The position numbers and the translations under genes were made by a program. From positions 650,138 through 714,137 of the forward strand of contig JBBECT010000005.1 of NCBI GenBank assembly GCA_040881665.1: a DNA stretch of 64,000 nt. Reading direction: 5' to 3'. The stretch is from Actinomycetota bacterium. Its GTDB lineage: Bacteria; Actinomycetota; UBA4738; HRBIN12. A model generated the notes under the pieces. That model searched no databases and was not told where the DNA came from. It saw only the letters and a program-made list of their open reading frames with translations. Positions 2,134 through 23,869 of the stretch are shown here, in pieces (position 1 is the stretch's first letter; every line of letters starts with the position of its first letter).

Positions 2134-2958
2134 ATGGCCGGTCGAGACGAACTCCTCGCGCGCGTCTGGGAACACGTGGCGTCGATGGACGCGGCCGTCG
2201 CGACGGTCCGGCGGGCTCCTTGGGGAGCGATCGTGACCGATCCCTCGTCCCCGCAGGTCTGGGACGTCAACTACGCCCGGGTCGAGGTCTCCGACCCCGG
2301 CCTCCGTCTTCCTGCGGTCGAGGCGCTCGCACGGCCGGCCCTCGCGGCGGTGGAGGCGCGCCGGCTCCACGTCGTCCTGCAACGTCCCGAGACGACCCTC
2401 GACCTGCTCACCGACCTCAGCACCCGGGGAGATGCCGTGCGATGGGAGGCGATCATGAGCGCGGCGACGGAAACGTCCCCGGCGACTGCCGACCACGACG
2501 AGCGAGACATCGTGGAGCTGGACCAGGATGGCCCCGAGTTCGGCGCGGTGCAGCGGAGTCAGGATCTGGCCTTCGGCGTCGATGACGACGAGGTCTCCGA
2601 GCGACTGCGCGTGATCGAGGAACGGATGCGACCCCTCGGCAAGCGGTTCTTCGGGATCCTCGATCCGGCCGGTCCGGGCGGGTTCGCCGCGATCGCCGCG
2701 ATCGTGCCCGGAGATGGGATCGCCTACATCGACAACGTGGTGACGTTCCCGCACGCGCGGCGACGTGGTCATGCCTCTGCGCTGGTGCGCCACCTCCTCG
2801 GACGGGCGGCCGTCGGTGGCGCGCAGCATGTGTACCTGCTCGTCGACGCGAACGGTCCCGCCGCGCTCTATGCGCGGCTCGGGTTCGACGAACTCACGCG
2901 GATCGCCAGCACGCTCGGTCCGGAGAGGTATCAGCCTTCCTCGGGCGGAGGAACGTAA
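2134..2958 (+). CDS. GNAT-family N-acetyltransferase
   Basis: The protein has 274 residues. The C-terminal half (about 130-265) is a GNAT domain: IDNVVTFPHARRRGHASALVRHLL contains the strand-4 motif and the acetyl-CoA loop (here RRRGHA, for the usual R/Q-x-x-G-x-G/A). LYARLGF is the typical end of the fold. The N-terminal half (1-115) is not recognised and may be a degenerate second GNAT domain. The substrate cannot be told. The 3' end overlaps the convergent SixA-like gene by 28 bp. The start is supported by the leaderless -10 at 2122. Confidence 0.8.
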   Translation: MAGRDELLARVWEHVASMDAAVATVRRAPWGAIVTDPSSPQVWDVNYARVEVSDPGLRLPAVEALARPALAAVEARRLHVVLQRPETTLDLLTDLSTRGDAVRWEAIMSAATETSPATADHDERDIVELDQDGPEFGAVQRSQDLAFGVDDDEVSERLRVIEERMRPLGKRFFGILDPAGPGGFAAIAAIVPGDGIAYIDNVVTFPHARRRGHASALVRHLLGRAAVGGAQHVYLLVDANGPAALYARLGFDELTRIASTLGPERYQPSSGGGT

Positions 2959-3404
2959 CGGCCGCGGACGAACCGGCCGCCCCGTCGCTCGAGGATCCAC
3001 GTCGACGCCTTGCGCCACGCGGTCGTGCCGTCGATCACGAGCCCGTCGGCAGCCAGGTACTCGACGACCGCGGGGATCATGTCGCCGTGGCTGCAGATCA
3101 CCGTCCCGGGCGGTACCACGCGGAGGACATCGAGAGCTTCGGCGGTCGCCGCGCCCTCGACGAAGGAAGGTTCGATCTCGATCTGCAGACCGCGTTCCTC
3201 CGCGATCGGGCGGACGGTCTCGACACAGCGCGTGTAGGAGCTGGACGACACGTGCGTGACCTCGATCGTGGCGAACGCACGCTGGAGCTTTCGCGCCTGC
3301 AGCTCCCCCGGCTTGGACAGGGGTCGCAGGCGGTCGTCTCCCTCCCATCGCGACCTGCTGCCGGCCTTGGCATGCCGGACGAGGTAGACGCGGTCCTCGC
3401 TCAC
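2931..3404 (-). CDS. SixA/phosphoglycerate mutase-like histidine phosphatase
   Basis: The 157-residue single-domain protein opens with VYLVRHAKAG, the RHG-type catalytic motif (Arg10, His11). The second histidine is in VICSHGDMIP. The length suits SixA-type phosphatases. It is the last gene of ppk-CHAD-NUDIX-SixA and starts with a GTG that overlaps the NUDIX stop codon (GTGA). In mycobacteria MutT1 is a NUDIX domain followed by a histidine phosphatase domain in one chain beside ppk1. Here the two halves are separate coupled genes. By analogy it may act on the nucleoside phosphate released by the NUDIX partner, but that is inference. Confidence 0.85.
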   Translation of the reverse strand: MSEDRVYLVRHAKAGSRSRWEGDDRLRPLSKPGELQARKLQRAFATIEVTHVSSSSYTRCVETVRPIAEERGLQIEIEPSFVEGAATAEALDVLRVVPPGTVICSHGDMIPAVVEYLAADGLVIDGTTAWRKASTWILERRGGRFVRGRYVPPPEEG

Positions 3405-3808
3405 GGTATCGCCCCGAGCGAGCGGACGAGCTCGCGATCGTGCCGATAGGTCAGCAGCTCGAGTGCGTCGGAAGAGGGAACCCAGCGCAGCTCGTCGACC
3501 TCGTCGTTCGCAACGAACTCGCCGGGCGTCGCGGCCATGCGCCAGTACCGCACGATCTTGCGCCGGCCCGTCCGATCCGTGTACTCGACCGAGGAGAGCT
3601 CGGATCCGAGGACGGCCTTCAGGCCCGTCTCCTCGAGCACTTCTCGGAGCGCGGCCGCCTCGTGGGTCTCCCCGCCGTCGAGCTTGCCCTTCGGCAGCGA
3701 CCAGTCGTCGTAGCGCGGTCGGTGCACGAGCGCGATGCGCGCTCGACGCCCGTCGTCCCACACGACGACCCCCCCCGCCGCATGGACGACCGCTTCCGGT
3801 TCGCTCAC
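3401..3808 (-). CDS. NUDIX hydrolase (MutT1 N-half-like)
   Basis: The 135-residue protein carries a complete NUDIX box at residues 41-63: G41, E47, R55-E56, then LEETGL. The preceding VHRPRYDDWSLPKGK is typical of MutT/Ap4A hydrolase proteins. Likely substrates are nucleoside diphosphates linked to another moiety, such as 8-oxo-dGTP or diadenosine polyphosphates. The GTG start at 3808 overlaps the stop of the CHAD gene, and the stop overlaps the SixA start, so translation is coupled on both sides. The upstream in-frame extension runs back into the CHAD gene and is unlikely. Confidence 0.88.
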   Translation of the reverse strand: MSEPEAVVHAAGGVVVWDDGRRARIALVHRPRYDDWSLPKGKLDGGETHEAAALREVLEETGLKAVLGSELSSVEYTDRTGRRKIVRYWRMAATPGEFVANDEVDELRWVPSSDALELLTYRHDRELVRSLGAIP

Positions 3809-4743
3809 GTCCAGAACCGCATCCGCTTCCGGGACAGCCGCTTCCAGGCTGCCGGCCAAGCGGCGCGAGCCTCACGGGCAACGGTCTCCTCGATCGAGGC
3901 GAGCTCGCCGGCCACGAAGGCCGCCGGTGCCTGGGCCCCGGTCCCGACCTCACGCAGCCAGGCGGTGGCGATCACCGCATCCTGGTGCACGCCGAGCACC
4001 TCCTGCAGCTCCGCGGCCGCCGCGGCGAACCGGCGGGCGGACTTGCCGAACACCGGCACCAAGGACTCGGCCGCGTATCGAGCGCGCTTCACACGGATCC
4101 GCGCGCCGTGGAGATCCTCATCGGGTGCGGCCTGTCCCAGATCGTCGAGCGCTGCGCGGACGTGACCGTACGGAGCGATCATCAGGGCTCCCGCGACCTC
4201 CTTCGCCGGGTTTCCCGACGCGGGGAGCACGGCGGGGTCCGCGACCTGTCCCACCAGGCGGTCGAACAGGCGGGCGTAGCGGTTCGACCGCATCCGCGTG
4301 AGCAGCTCGTCGTGCGCGTGCCGGCGACGTTCCCGGAGCCGCGCGAGCAACCGTTCGACGGCGACGGCGTCCTCCTCGGACAGGGACGCCGCGGCCGCGC
4401 GCAGCCGGTCGGTCAGGACATCGGCGTCGCGGACCGCCCCCAGGGCCTCGGAGAGCCACCCAAGCTCCTCGCGCAGCCGCGACCCCCAGGCCGGATCGAG
4501 CAGGTCGCGCCACGTCCGAAGGTCCGAACGGAGTCGGCGGATCGCGACCCGCGCTCGATGCACCGACTCGGGGTCCTCACCCAGGCGCAGGTCCTCGTCG
4601 GCGCCCACGAGCTCGATCGCGGCAGACAGCAACGACGATCGCAGCACCTCGGCCGCGTTCGGATCGTCGCCGAGCTCGGGCACGACGAGCACCGGGGGCC
4701 CACCGGCCACGATCGCACCCGTTCCTCGGTCCGGCTCGCTCAC
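3805..4743 (-). CDS. CHAD domain protein (polyphosphate-associated)
   Basis: The 312-residue helical protein has the conserved-histidine helices of CHAD domains. VHRARVAIRRLRSDLRTW (His62) and LHGARIRVKRARYAAE carry the paired His and Arg/Lys residues that line the basic channel known to bind polyphosphate. CHAD genes often sit beside polyphosphate kinase, as here, so the protein probably localises to or protects polyP granules. The GTG start at 4743 overlaps the ppk stop codon, and its own stop overlaps the NUDIX start. A CYTH/triphosphatase domain, often fused to CHAD, is absent. Confidence 0.88.
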   Translation of the reverse strand: MSEPDRGTGAIVAGGPPVLVVPELGDDPNAAEVLRSSLLSAAIELVGADEDLRLGEDPESVHRARVAIRRLRSDLRTWRDLLDPAWGSRLREELGWLSEALGAVRDADVLTDRLRAAAASLSEEDAVAVERLLARLRERRRHAHDELLTRMRSNRYARLFDRLVGQVADPAVLPASGNPAKEVAGALMIAPYGHVRAALDDLGQAAPDEDLHGARIRVKRARYAAESLVPVFGKSARRFAAAAAELQEVLGVHQDAVIATAWLREVGTGAQAPAAFVAGELASIEETVAREARAAWPAAWKRLSRKRMRFWT

Positions 4744-6932
4744 CGTTCGCCCCGTGCCCGCTCCATCGCGAGCTCCTGCAGACGCATCTGGGCGTCGACC
4801 CCTCTCGTGGTCGGCACCTTCGTCCATCCGGCGTCCGGATCCAGCTCCCACGCCAGGGTGTCGTCCTCCCGGCAGACCTCGAGGATCTCGTCGAGGCGCA
4901 CTTGCAGGTGCGGGTCCGTCACCGGCGCGACGGCCTCGACCCGACGATCGAGGTTGCGCGGCATCAGGTCGGCCGACCCGATGTAGTGATCCCTGCCGCG
5001 CTCGCGGGAACCGAACCGGAAGATCCGGGAATGCTCCAGGTACCGTCCGACGATCGAGCGCACCCGGATCGTTTCCGACATACCGGGAACACCCGGGCGC
5101 AGACAGCAGATGCCGCGCACGATCAGCGAGACGCTCGCCCCGGCGATCGAGGCTTCGTAGAGCGCCTCGATCATGTCCGCGTCGACGAGGCTGTTCATCT
5201 TCAGCACGATCTCTCCGTCCGGAGCCTTCGCCTCGCGCTTGATCAGCTCGAGGATCGTGGGCCGCACCCCCGCAGGGGCGACGACCAGCTTGCGGAAGTC
5301 GCGCTGACGGCTGTAGCCGGTGAGGCCGTTGAAGAGCTCCGAAAGATCCTGTCCGAGCTCCGGATCGGCCGAGAGCAGGCCGACGTCCTCGTAGAGCCGT
5401 GCCGTGACCGCGTTGTAGTTCCCGGTGCCGACGTGCGCGTAGCGACGGATGCCCGCGCCTTCGCGGCGGACGACGAGGAGGGCCTTCGCGTGCGTCTTCA
5501 AACCGACCATGCCGTACACAACGTGCACGCCCGATTGCTCGAGGGCGCGCGCCCAGGTGATGTTCGCCTCTTCGTCGAACCGCGCCTTCAGCTCGACCAA
5601 CGCCACGACCTGCTTACCGGCCTCCGCAGCGCGAGACAGCGAACGGATGATCGCCGACTCCCTTCCCGAGGTGCGGTAAAGGCTCTGCTTGATCGCAAGC
5701 ACGTTCGGATCGGCGGCGGCCTGTTCGACGAATGCCTCGACAGAGGTCCCGAACGAATCGTACGGATGGTGCACGAGCACGTCCGTGTCTCGCAGCACTT
5801 TGAACAGGTCCACCCGCCCGGCCTCCTCGCGGGCGAGTCGCGCCTGCGTGACCGGTGCCCACGGCTCGAACCGCAGATCGGGGCGGTCGAGCGCATGCAG
5901 GGCCGAGAGGCCGCCGAGGTCGAGCAACCCCTGGGACACGAAGACCTGCGAGTCTTCGAGATCGAGCTCGCGGATCAGGAGCTCGCGGACCTCGGGCGAC
6001 ATGTCGGGGGCGATCTCCAGACGGACCGGCAGCGCCCCGCGACGCCGGCGCCGCAGCACGGACTCGATCGCATCGAGCAGATCGTCGGCCTCCTCCTCCT
6101 CGAGCTCGATGTCGGCATCGCGCGTCACGCGGAACACATGGTGCTCGTGGATCTCCATGCCGGGAAACAGAGAGTCGAGATGGGCCGCGATCACCTGCTC
6201 GAGGGGGACGAACCGTTCGCCGTCTGGCATAGCGAAGAACCGCGGGAGCAGCGGCGGAACCTTCACCCGTGCGAAGCGCCGGTCTCCGGTCATCGGGTCG
6301 CGGACGATCGCGGCCAGGTTGAGCGACAGGCTGGAGATGTACGGGAACGGGTGCGCAGGGTCGACGGACAACGGCGTGAGCACCGGGAACATGGATTCCC
6401 GGAACTGATCGGACAGGAACATTCGATCCTCGGTCGACAGCGCCGACCACGGTTCGACCCTGATGCGCTCGGACTCGAGGGCCGGAAGGAGCTCCTGCAC
6501 GAGTGTGCGGTCGACACGACCCTGGAGCTGCAGCACCCGCTCGCGGATCGCCTCAAGCTGCTCGGCGGGCGTCATCCCGTCGGGAGCCGCCGTTCCGGTG
6601 ACACCCGCCCCGCGCTGCTCCTGCAGGCCGGAAACTCGAACCTGGAAGAACTCGTCGAGGTTCGTGGAATAGATCGCGAGGAACTTCACGCGCTCGAGCA
6701 GCGGCACCGTCGCGTCTTCGGCGAGCGCGAGCACTCGAGCATTGAACTCGAGCCAGCTGAGCTCCCGGTTGATGAACCGGGGACCCGGATGAGCCTCGTC
6801 CTGCGGTGTATCGAGCTCGTCCGCGCCACGAGGCGGGGCGAGCCGGTGGGCGAGCTCGTCCTCGGGCTCCGCGGTTCGACCGGAGGTCGAGCCGGGGGTC
6901 ACGCCTGGGGAGGACGTCGCCATGGACTGCAC
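4740..6932 (-). CDS. ppk: Polyphosphate kinase 1
   Basis: The 730-residue protein makes polyphosphate from the gamma-phosphate of ATP, reversibly. The N domain begins at about residue 50 with FINRELSWLEFNARVL. The two catalytic-domain histidines are His481 in LKTHAKALLV, the probable phosphorylated residue (E. coli His435), and His649 in HYIGSADLMPRNLDRR (E. coli His592). The first 45 residues are a low-complexity acidic tail. Start choice is uncertain: GTG at 6932 or ATG at 6923, both with a weak Shine-Dalgarno. It heads the four-gene coupled operon and has its own promoter with a PHO box 80 bp upstream, so it is probably induced by phosphate starvation. Confidence 0.95.
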   Translation of the reverse strand: MQSMATSSPGVTPGSTSGRTAEPEDELAHRLAPPRGADELDTPQDEAHPGPRFINRELSWLEFNARVLALAEDATVPLLERVKFLAIYSTNLDEFFQVRVSGLQEQRGAGVTGTAAPDGMTPAEQLEAIRERVLQLQGRVDRTLVQELLPALESERIRVEPWSALSTEDRMFLSDQFRESMFPVLTPLSVDPAHPFPYISSLSLNLAAIVRDPMTGDRRFARVKVPPLLPRFFAMPDGERFVPLEQVIAAHLDSLFPGMEIHEHHVFRVTRDADIELEEEEADDLLDAIESVLRRRRRGALPVRLEIAPDMSPEVRELLIRELDLEDSQVFVSQGLLDLGGLSALHALDRPDLRFEPWAPVTQARLAREEAGRVDLFKVLRDTDVLVHHPYDSFGTSVEAFVEQAAADPNVLAIKQSLYRTSGRESAIIRSLSRAAEAGKQVVALVELKARFDEEANITWARALEQSGVHVVYGMVGLKTHAKALLVVRREGAGIRRYAHVGTGNYNAVTARLYEDVGLLSADPELGQDLSELFNGLTGYSRQRDFRKLVVAPAGVRPTILELIKREAKAPDGEIVLKMNSLVDADMIEALYEASIAGASVSLIVRGICCLRPGVPGMSETIRVRSIVGRYLEHSRIFRFGSRERGRDHYIGSADLMPRNLDRRVEAVAPVTDPHLQVRLDEILEVCREDDTLAWELDPDAGWTKVPTTRGVDAQMRLQELAMERARGER

Positions 6933-6974: not shown

Positions 6975-7004
6975 ATGCTACGTTCGCCGCGGCGCAAGTC
7001 GCAA
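6975..7004 (-). promoter_or_regulatory. ppk promoter
   Basis: On the minus strand TTGCGA (7004-6999) is followed, after 18 bp, by TAGCAT (6980-6975). The PHO box array begins 7 bp upstream of the -35. The predicted leader is about 35 nt. Confidence 0.45.
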
Positions 7005-7011
7005 GGCGACC

Positions 7012-7044
7012 GCGGTGAACCCGCGGTGAACCCGCGGTGAACCC
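7012..7044 (-). promoter_or_regulatory. PHO box: three 11-bp direct repeats before ppk
   Basis: GCGGTGAACCC occurs three times in perfect tandem, at 7012, 7023 and 7034. Read toward ppk, each unit contains GTTCACC. This is the core and the 11-bp spacing of actinobacterial PhoP operators (Streptomyces PHO boxes). The likely binder is the PhoB/PhoP-type regulator encoded at 7085-7816, whose gene ends 40 bp away. Confidence 0.8.
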
Positions 7045-7084
7045 GCCGGTCGTGACCCGGCGGCAGGAGATCGAGCCCTCGACC

Positions 7085-7816
7085 TCAGGCAACGAACTTG
7101 TAGCCGAGCCCTCGGACGGTGAGCAGGTGGACGGGATGGTGCGGGTCCGCCTCGATCTTCTGGCGCAACCGCTTCACGTGAACGTCCAGCGTTTTCGTAT
7201 CACCGAAGTAGCCGGGACCCCAGACCTCCTCGATCAGGAACTCCCGCGTGAGCAACCGTCCCGCGCGTCGCAGGAACGCCTCGAGCAGTTCGAACTCTTT
7301 CGGAGGGAACGCCACCACCTCGCCACGGACACGAACCTCGTGCCGCACGACGTCCATCTCGACCGCCGTGCCGACGAGGACATCCTCGGGTACGGTCACG
7401 GCCCGCATCCTCGACCGGCGGAGGTTCGCGCGTACCCGCGAGATCAGCTCCCGGACGCTGAAGGGCTTCGTGATGTAGTCGTCGGCACCGAGCTCGAGGC
7501 CGGTGACCTTGTCGGCCTCGGCGTCCTTCGCCGTGACGATGATGATCGGGACGTCGGACTCGGCCCGGATCGCACGGCAGACATCCAGCCCCGACAGCTC
7601 CGGCAGCATCAGATCGAGGACCACGAGCGCCGGTGGTTCGGCGTGGAACCGCGCGAGCCCGGTGTGCCCGTCCCCCGCCACCGAGACGACGTAGCCCTCA
7701 CGTTCGAGGTTGTAGCGGATCGAATCAGCGAGCGACTCCTCGTCCTCCACCAAGAGGATCCGCAGGACCGCCTCTCCGGTCGGGGACGTGCCCTGTGGCT
7801 CGGGTTCAGTCCGCAT
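7085..7816 (-). CDS. phoB: PhoB/PhoP-type OmpR-family response regulator
   Basis: The 243-residue protein has a receiver domain (about 18-135) with the acidic pair in VEDEE (Glu24-Asp25), phosphoacceptor Asp68 in VVLDLMLP and the Lys of DDYITKPFS. A winged-helix DNA-binding domain follows (about 147-243), ending in TVRGLGYKFVA. It is the probable binder of the 11-bp repeats before ppk and pstS. The ATG at 7816 overlaps the end of phoU by 11 bp. Its kinase is most likely PhoR at 12546, which lies at the other end of the pst operon. The extra 17 N-terminal residues are unusual and may be non-essential. Confidence 0.92.
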   Translation of the reverse strand: MRTEPEPQGTSPTGEAVLRILLVEDEESLADSIRYNLEREGYVVSVAGDGHTGLARFHAEPPALVVLDLMLPELSGLDVCRAIRAESDVPIIIVTAKDAEADKVTGLELGADDYITKPFSVRELISRVRANLRRSRMRAVTVPEDVLVGTAVEMDVVRHEVRVRGEVVAFPPKEFELLEAFLRRAGRLLTREFLIEEVWGPGYFGDTKTLDVHVKRLRQKIEADPHHPVHLLTVRGLGYKFVA

Positions 7817-11388: not shown

Positions 11389-12399
11389 CTAGCCGACCGC
11401 CTTCTCCCAGGCCGAGCGCGTGGCCCGGACGCGGTCGTCGGGCAGGCTCACGTAGCCGACCTCGGAAACCGACGCCAGCCCCTCGTCCGTGAGGTAGTAG
11501 TCGACGAACGCGGCCACCGCAGCGTTCACGGCCGCCTTCTCTGCGCTGGGATAGATGTAGAGGGAACGCGCGAGCGGATAGGTACCGTCGATGACCGTCT
11601 CCTCGCTCGGAGCCACGCACCCATCGCCGCCGTCGACCTCGACGGCCTTCACCGTGTCGCCGGCGCCGAGCGCGAACGAGAGTCCGACGAAGCCGAGGCC
11701 CGAGGAGTTGTTCGCGGCGTTGTCGATGATCACGTTGTCGTCACCCGATGCCTGGTAGTCCTTGCGGAGCTGATCGTCGGGTTGCTTCTGTGCCTCCGCG
11801 ATGTCGGCGAGCGCGATCTCGATGAACGAGCCGTAGGTACCCGACTCCTCACCGGGCGCGACGATCGTCAACGGCACGTCGGGAAGCCCGCCGTTGCCGC
11901 CGACCTCCGTTGCGAGCTCGTTGGCATCACTCCACTGCGTGAAGCCTTCCGACTCGGGGCCGAACAGGGCGTACAGGTCGCCGAGGGCCAGGCAGTCGAC
12001 CGGGTTCTCCGGATTGGTCACGACCGTCAGCGCATCGAGGCCGACCTCCAGCTCGACGGGGGTCACGCCCGCCGCCTCGCACGCGTCGGCTTCCTCGTCG
12101 TCGATCGCACGGGACGCATCGTTCATGTCCGTGTCGCCGGCGCAGAAGAGCTCGAAGCCGTCGCTGGTTCCCGGACCGTCCACCGCGATCTCGACGCTGG
12201 GGTTCTCGCCGGCGAACTTCTCCGCGTTCAGCGACGAGATCTGCTCGACCGTCGAGGATCCAGACACGTTGACGCTGCCGGTGACTTCGGCAGTGTCGCC
12301 GGCATCGGCCTCGTCGTCGCTCCCACCGCACGCCGCGGCTACGAGCGACAGCACGAGGATCCCAGCGATCAGGGCGAACAGATTCTTGCTGTGGCGCAT
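11389..12399 (-). CDS. pstS: Phosphate-binding lipoprotein PstS
   Basis: The 336-residue protein has a lipoprotein signal peptide ending in LVAAAC, with Cys24 as the lipid-bearing residue. The mature protein starts with an acidic linker and then SVNVSGSSTVEQI, the phosphate-binding SGSST loop of PstS proteins. Further binding residues are expected in DASRAI and PGEESGTYGSF. It captures phosphate outside the membrane for PstCAB. The ATG at 12399 has a strong Shine-Dalgarno (GGAGGG). Two pairs of PHO repeats lie 76-111 bp upstream, so it should be the main starvation-induced promoter. Confidence 0.96.
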   Translation of the reverse strand: MRHSKNLFALIAGILVLSLVAAACGGSDDEADAGDTAEVTGSVNVSGSSTVEQISSLNAEKFAGENPSVEIAVDGPGTSDGFELFCAGDTDMNDASRAIDDEEADACEAAGVTPVELEVGLDALTVVTNPENPVDCLALGDLYALFGPESEGFTQWSDANELATEVGGNGGLPDVPLTIVAPGEESGTYGSFIEIALADIAEAQKQPDDQLRKDYQASGDDNVIIDNAANNSSGLGFVGLSFALGAGDTVKAVEVDGGDGCVAPSEETVIDGTYPLARSLYIYPSAEKAAVNAAVAAFVDYYLTDEGLASVSEVGYVSLPDDRVRATRSAWEKAVG

Positions 12400-12443: not shown

Positions 12444-12474
12444 TGGAGGGCGGATGACCAGACCCTGGCCCGAA

Positions 12475-12510
12475 GGTGAACGCCGGGTGAACGGTGACCG
12501 GGAGGTGAAC
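12475..12510 (-). promoter_or_regulatory. PHO box: two pairs of 11-bp repeats before pstS
   Basis: GGTGAAC or GGTGACC occurs at 12475, 12486, 12493 and 12504. Spacing is 11 bp within each pair, with the second pair offset by 18 bp. On the strand read toward pstS the units are GTTCACC followed by CGGC, TTC or TCC, matching the Streptomyces PHO-box pattern. The region also lies upstream of divergent phoR, so both promoters could respond. Confidence 0.8.
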
Positions 12511-12533
12511 GGCAGCGCCCACAGATGCCCCCG

Positions 12534-12539
12534 TACACT
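12534..12539 (+). promoter_or_regulatory. -10 element of phoR, leaderless
   Basis: TACACT is followed by 6 nt and the ATG at 12546. The PHO repeats end 24 bp upstream, close to where a -35 would be. Confidence 0.55.
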
Positions 12540-12545
12540 CGCCCC

Positions 12546-13850
12546 ATGGAGCTGAGCGCCGCCCTCGGGGTCGTGCTCGCCGCGATCGCGGGGGCGGGAT
12601 CGGGTTGGTGGGTCGCCACCAGAGCCTTCGGACGACGGCTCCGCTCGGCGACCGACGCGGTGGATCGGCTCGGTGACGCGGACACGGAGGCTCGAACCCT
12701 CGAAGGCGGCCCCGCAGGCGCGGCCGCCTTGGCGGGAGCGGTGAACCGCGCGGGGGAACGTCTCGGAGGACAGGTGCGAGCGCTCCGACGCGAGCAGCGG
12801 ATCCGGGACTTGATCCTGTCCTCGATGCAGGAGGGCGTCCTCCTGTTCGACGGTGATGGCGGCGGTGTCGTCTTCGCGAACGACGCGATCGACCGCCACC
12901 TCCGCACCCGCCCGGCAACGGCGTCGCAGCTGCACCCTCCGGCACTGCGTGAGGCGGTGGAGCACGCGGCGTCTGTGTCGCGCCCCGTCTCCGTCGAGGT
13001 CGAGATGACGGCACCGAGCGCGTGGCTCCGCGGAACCGCCGTTCCCGCGATCGGAGGCAACTCGGTCCTGCTCGTCCTCCGCGACGTCACCGAGGCCAAG
13101 CGGCTCGACGCCGTCCGCCGCGACTTCGTCGCGAATGCGTCGCACGAACTGAAGACACCGGCAGCGTCGATCCAGGCGACCGCGGAGACGATCCGGATCG
13201 CCGCGGAGGACGATCCGGCCGTCGTCCCCCGGTTCGCACAGCAACTCGATCGCGAGGCGATCCGCCTGTCGAGCATCGTCGCGGACCTGCTCGACCTCTC
13301 GCGCCTGGAAACGGGCAGCGACATCGATGACGACGTCCGGCTGGACGTGCTCCTTCGCGAGGAGACGCCACGCATCCAGGACGCCGCGCGCGCCGCGGAT
13401 GTCGAGCTAGAGATCGACGCCGCTCCCGTCCCCCCGATCCGCGGCGCCCGTCGCGACCTCGCGCTGTGCGTCCGCAACCTCGTCGACAACGCGATCCGGT
13501 ACACCAAGCCCGGAGGGAACGTCCTCGTCGCCGTCGTCGAGGGCGCCGGCGGCGAGGTCGTGCTGAAGGTGGCCGACACCGGGATCGGGATCCCGTCGCG
13601 GGACCTCCCCAGGATCTTCGAGCGCTTCTACCGGATCGACCGCGCGCGCTCGCGCGACTCTGGGGGCACCGGACTCGGGTTATCGATCGTCAAGCACGTC
13701 GTCGAGAACCACGGCGGCGCCGTCTCGGTCGACAGCGAGCTCGGCCAAGGAACCCGTTTCGAGATCCGGTTCCCTCCCGATGCCGCGAGGACCGGTCGCG
13801 ACGGCCGCGCGGCGCCCGCCGGCGGGGACGGGGCTATCCTTCCCCGGTGA
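12546..13850 (+). CDS. phoR: PhoR-like sensor histidine kinase
   Basis: The 434-residue protein has one N-terminal membrane helix (about 3-24), a PAS-like domain (about 85-183) and a HisKA domain with phosphorylated His200 in NASHELKTPAAS. The HATPase_c domain has the N box in NLVDNAIRYTKPGG, then DTGIGIP and GGTGLGLSIVKHVV. No extracytoplasmic domain is present, which fits phosphate sensing through PstCAB-PhoU rather than direct ligand binding. The partner regulator is phoB at 7085. The start at 12546 is favoured by the leaderless -10. The 3' end overlaps the next gene by 4 nt (GTGA). Confidence 0.9.
   Translation: MELSAALGVVLAAIAGAGSGWWVATRAFGRRLRSATDAVDRLGDADTEARTLEGGPAGAAALAGAVNRAGERLGGQVRALRREQRIRDLILSSMQEGVLLFDGDGGGVVFANDAIDRHLRTRPATASQLHPPALREAVEHAASVSRPVSVEVEMTAPSAWLRGTAVPAIGGNSVLLVLRDVTEAKRLDAVRRDFVANASHELKTPAASIQATAETIRIAAEDDPAVVPRFAQQLDREAIRLSSIVADLLDLSRLETGSDIDDDVRLDVLLREETPRIQDAARAADVELEIDAAPVPPIRGARRDLALCVRNLVDNAIRYTKPGGNVLVAVVEGAGGEVVLKVADTGIGIPSRDLPRIFERFYRIDRARSRDSGGTGLGLSIVKHVVENHGGAVSVDSELGQGTRFEIRFPPDAARTGRDGRAAPAGGDGAILPR
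13835..13840 (+). promoter_or_regulatory. -10 element inside phoR for the phosphatase gene
   Basis: TATCCT lies 6 nt before the GTG at 13847. It would give a leaderless mRNA starting within the 3' end of phoR, in addition to readthrough. Confidence 0.45.
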
Positions 13851-23566: not shown

Positions 23567-23869
23567 CTACTCGCTGTGCGTCGCGGCCGAACGCCGGCGC
23601 GCGATCATCAGCGTTGCCACACCTGCAACGATCAACACCCCGAGAAGGACCATCCACATCGAGACATCGCCGCCGGTGAAGGCGGTGTCTCCCGCGGACT
23701 TGACGACGTTGTTCGCGTTGTTCGCGTTGTTCGAGTCGCCAGCCGCTTCAACGCAGTTGGGCTTCGGGGGGTAATCGTTGCAGGCGGCCGTCGCGGTTCC
23801 CGCCGTCACCATCAAGAACATGGTCGCCGAAACGACCATCGCACCGATGACTGCTGTTGCCCGCTTCAT
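23567..23869 (-). CDS. Small secreted protein with sortase-like C-terminus
   Basis: The 100-residue protein has a signal peptide (1-29, ending TATAA), a very short mature part with two cysteines (CNDYPPKPNC) and an Asn-rich run NNANNANN. It then has TAFTGG (62-67), a hydrophobic helix (about 70-90) and a basic tail ARRR. This order matches cell-wall sorting signals; the pentapeptide resembles the LAxTG motif of class E sortases with Thr in place of Leu. No sortase gene is in the window. The ATG at 23869 has AGAAGG upstream. It flanks the polysaccharide locus. Confidence 0.75.
   Translation of the reverse strand: MKRATAVIGAMVVSATMFLMVTAGTATAACNDYPPKPNCVEAAGDSNNANNANNVVKSAGDTAFTGGDVSMWMVLLGVLIVAGVATLMIARRRSAATHSE

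Follow-up and report, generated by a model that had tools for sequence, protein, structure and literature searches.

In Streptomyces lividans, ppk, pptA (encoding a CHAD-domain protein) and a nudix gene overlap, are co-transcribed and are under positive PhoR/PhoP control; conservation of this ppk-CHAD-NUDIX operon has been described for Streptomyces and denied for other prokaryotes (PMC8003754). PHO boxes are known at ppk of S. coelicolor and S. tsukubaensis, and the Streptomyces ppk gene is located beside pstSCAB (PMC7866108). For Streptomyces, the position immediately before the -35 element has been described as one from which a box activates (PMC7244524). Here we compare these systems with a ppk locus in a 64-kb stretch of actinobacterial DNA (the window).

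The ppk gene of the window (4740-6932, minus strand) encodes polyphosphate kinase 1 with all four PPK domains (Pfam). It is followed on the same strand by genes for a CHAD-domain protein (phosin, PptA-like; 3805-4743), a NUDIX hydrolase (3401-3808) and a SixA-like histidine phosphatase (2931-3404). Start and stop overlap by 4 nt (GTGA) at the ppk/CHAD, CHAD/NUDIX and NUDIX/SixA junctions, so the original prediction was right that three coupled genes lie downstream of ppk. As in the Streptomyces-type operon, the overlapping CHAD and NUDIX genes are directly behind ppk and near pstSCAB. The pstS gene (11389-12399) is followed by pstC, pstA, pstB and phoU, all on the minus strand, and a gene for a phoR-type histidine kinase (12525-13850, plus strand) is divergent from pstS. 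The CHAD, NUDIX and histidine phosphatase proteins, PhoU, the ABC ATPase (PstB), the phosphate-binding-type protein (PstS) and the histidine kinase were also recognised by Pfam.

Three exact tandem copies of GCGGTGAACCC occupy 7012-7022, 7023-7033 and 7034-7044 with zero mismatches, as had been predicted. Consistently, TRF reports 7010-7046 (period 11, 3.4 copies, 100% matches) with the top score within the window. Because phoB and ppk are both on the minus strand, the functional reading of the array is the minus-strand one (GTTCACC), which is GTTCACCGCGG three times, directed at ppk. These units are at 7032-7042, 7021-7031 and 7010-7020, and the predicted 7012-7044 is their complementary register within 7010-7046. 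The three 11-nt units are in phase and each GTTCACC core matches at 7/7 positions. Across the 64 kb, only one other run combines at least three perfect copies with a period of 7-15, and no such run arose when the window was simulated 60 times with a third-order Markov model. The second run consists of three perfect copies of CGTTGTTCG at 23707-23733.

All 11 unit positions are identical among the three units, spacers included, and the chance for the spacers is about 5e-5. The identical spacers suggest a recent duplication of the unit. One could therefore regard the array as a chance tandem duplication, or as a GC-rich terminator-like structure after phoB, with no operator function, and as RNA the array does fold better than shuffles (z -3.8). 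However, the duplicated unit is exactly the PHO unit, found elsewhere in the genome only at pstS, and neither a T-run nor a terminator was detected by scan after phoB. A hairpin directly behind phoB (about 7043-7063) folds only a little better than shuffled sequence (z -1.4). We consider an origin of this kind, free of operator function, extremely improbable.

The second place with this unit is the pstS operator (12471-12510, minus strand), which reads GTTCACC TCCC GGTCACC / GTTCACCCGGC GTTCACCTTCG. Over 12449-12510, its two perfect units are accompanied by a second box upstream, GTTCACCTCCCGGTCACC, and by a weak unit, GGTCATCCGCC, 22 bp downstream (12449-12459). By eye, a weaker unit at the same 22-bp distance is also seen at pstS of several relatives, and this recurrence suggests a conserved multi-unit operator. 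The 11-bp unit was then searched by pattern in the whole genome (2,458,355 bases, 2.46 Mb), a check proposed with the original prediction. Zero-mismatch GTTCACC-N4-GTTCACC occurs in the ppk array (two overlapping pairs) and upstream of pstS, and nowhere else. When two adjacent full 11-mers with at most three mismatches were required, no second site was found across the genome. The two one-mismatch sites of the GTTCACC-N4-GTTCACC search outside the locus (L087 and L088) were rejected as operators, since they lie inside coding sequence and are probably due to chance.

A weight matrix was built only from the pstS sites of 14 relatives, which themselves score 22.0-24.3. With this profile, the ppk array and the pstS site of the window both reach 23.7 bits, while 212 further 300-bp blocks from the window gave at most 13.2. 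When the entire window was scanned, the next best site, disregarding the second box within the pstS operator, scored 14.2. Of 17 actinobacterial genomes that gave a pstS match (the present one among them), 15 have a GTTCA(C/T)-type direct repeat in 11-bp phase in the 400 bp before pstS (p at most 0.025 and mostly 0 against shuffled sequence). The motif is thus found at pstS of this organism and of its relatives. Three units with perfect cores are rare: of 396 genomes sampled across the phylum, only this genome and G213 have them. In G213, the three perfect units (L201:1501-1529) have a PHO4 phosphate transporter gene on one side and, on the other, a divergent gene whose product by eye resembles a LytR C-terminal-type protein.

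The presumed ligand of the array is encoded immediately next to it, by a phoB/regX3-type response regulator gene (7085-7816, minus strand). The protein has an OmpR-type receiver and a winged-helix domain, and its closest solved chain is RegX3 (2oqr, E 8e-80), with which it shares the identical stretch DTKTLDVHVKRLR in the DNA-binding domain. In its regulator the locus resembles the mycobacterial SenX3-RegX3 system with ppk1 (Rv2984), cited in PMC6754071. With GTTCACC units at 11 bp, an adjacent RegX3-type PhoB and a motif shared genome-wide only with pstS, the proposal that the pattern matches actinobacterial PhoP operators is supported by sequence comparison, and from its sequence the array is almost certainly a landing site for the phosphate-starvation regulator. 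A different regulator, such as a PolR-like protein that responds to oxygen, could in principle use GTTCAC repeats. The sequence bound by PolR at ppk and pstS of Microlunatus phosphovorus is GTTCACnnnnnGTTCaC, and the PolR box GTTCACn5GTTCaC has the same repeat and the same two targets as in the window (PMC6754071). Unlike the presumed PhoB ligand here, the protein bound to that box is a DevR-like regulator thought to be oxygen-responsive (PMC6754071). The direct adjacency of phoB, and the sharing of the box with pstS and with the phoB-flanking positions of relatives, argue against such a regulator, which we regard as very unlikely.

A putative -35 (TTGCGA, 6999-7004) is located 5 bp downstream of the array on the minus strand, and a putative -10 (TAGCAT, 6975-6980) follows at 18 bp. 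The original prediction had placed a plausible -35/-10 here; the pair is readable and partly recurs at ppk of relatives, but it is too weak to be detected by a simple sigma-70 scan. By eye, TTGCRR-18-TA(G/C)NAT is also present at ppk of two same-family relatives (G006 and G014), and a TAGCAT-like -10 at ppk of most relatives. The distance from the array to the -10 appears greater than that at the pstS box, so the activation geometry would differ between the two promoters.

These elements suggest how the array may work. On phosphate limitation, the histidine kinase (12525-13850) would phosphorylate the RegX3-type PhoB (7085-7816). Phosphorylated PhoB would bind head-to-tail to the GTTCACC units just upstream of the weak -35 and recruit RNA polymerase, and ppk-CHAD-NUDIX-SixA would be raised together with the pst operon. 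Because this position relative to the -35 has been described as an activator position in Streptomyces, activation by phosphorylated PhoB is favoured. The opposite sign is conceivable, in which bound PhoB would lower ppk expression or damp transcription that continues from the pst-phoB operon, as the array sits between phoB and ppk and PhoP repression has been proposed for Streptomyces boxes overlapping the -35 or downstream of it (PMC7244524). The array, however, leaves 5 bp before the putative -35 begins, and the control of the S. lividans ppk operon is positive (PMC8003754), so repression or dampening is improbable. We therefore favour the reading of the array as a three-unit PHO box at which phosphorylated PhoB raises transcription of the ppk operon on phosphate limitation, with a probability of about 0.85. 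Binding by PhoB, its activating rather than repressing effect and the transcription start are all inferred, and induction of the ppk operon on phosphate limitation is a well supported prediction.

The PPK1 reaction is reversible. The original prediction that polyphosphate synthesis is switched on goes too far, since the PhoP-induced Ppk of S. lividans makes ATP from polyphosphate under energetic stress (PMC8003754), and in the same species polyphosphate content tracks medium phosphate and polyphosphate degradation is delayed without PhoP (PMC4433243). Net polyphosphate synthesis is thus not predicted with confidence.

The gene order pstSCAB-phoU-phoB-(DUF47-Pit-DUF47)-ppk-CHAD-NUDIX is kept in the family and the order, with SixA next where the locus extends (G018 has its pst genes on the opposite strand; in the relatives, DUF47 and Pit were recognised by eye from reading frames). 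The ppk-CHAD-NUDIX operon was present in 5/5 loci examined in the order. A strong PHO box was absent from the immediate ppk upstream regions of the same-family relatives G002, G006 and G014, so this control of ppk does not extend to every member of the family. In a set of 101 ppk upstream regions, few others had a similar motif, all weaker than that of the window. Two further boxes (18.2 bits in G023, L120, and 13.8 bits in G025, L133) face a divergent gene, away from ppk. In the family of this genome, a ppk match is absent in 8 of 17 genomes, some of them incomplete, and most family genomes without it have a phoB homologue (70-80% identity).

PHO boxes were also found within 60 bp downstream of the phoB stop (the slot) in G016 (22.3), in G013 and G003 (16.9) and, as a three-unit box (15.7 and 15.0), in G001, with DUF47 behind the box in all four. 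These boxes before DUF47-Pit belong to genera g4 and g2 (L206:6871, L207:7019, L172 and L187). They led us to revise the view that this genome alone had gained PHO control of ppk. No PHO box was found in the slot of G002 and G018, where ppk directly follows phoB as in the window. The only PHO4/Pit match of this genome is about 12 kb before the window start (G000:C5:637243-638124). In the sister genera the box precedes the DUF47-Pit module and ppk comes last. With the module missing from the slot, ppk would come directly under the PHO box, and the unit would then have been amplified to three perfect copies. We offer this cis-regulatory rewiring as a tentative and rather doubtful scenario; the PhoB tree with the slot boxes mapped is compatible with a common origin and with separate origins.

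The window resembles S. lividans and S. coelicolor in the overlapping CHAD and NUDIX genes behind ppk (ppk-pptA-nudA), in the linkage of ppk to pstSCAB (PMC8003754, PMC7866108), and in having 11-bp GTTCACC direct-repeat units before ppk together with a PhoR/PhoP-type system. Unlike in these species, the same cluster holds phoB, phoU and a divergent phoR, there is an additional SixA gene, the overlaps of the genes downstream of ppk measure exactly 4 nt, and the three units are letter-perfect including the spacers. As PHO control of ppk is already proven in Streptomyces, the arrangement appears largely ordinary. It likely adds an actinobacterial order, represented here mostly by fragmented draft genomes, to those in which PhoP/RegX3 controls polyphosphate kinase, and in this order ppk-CHAD-NUDIX operons recur outside Streptomyces. 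The comparison of slots provides a small testable case of the possible inheritance of an operator despite replacement of the genes that follow it. Compared with the known systems, new features are the boxes in the slot after phoB before DUF47-Pit in two related genera, the rarity of three perfect units and the identity of their spacers.
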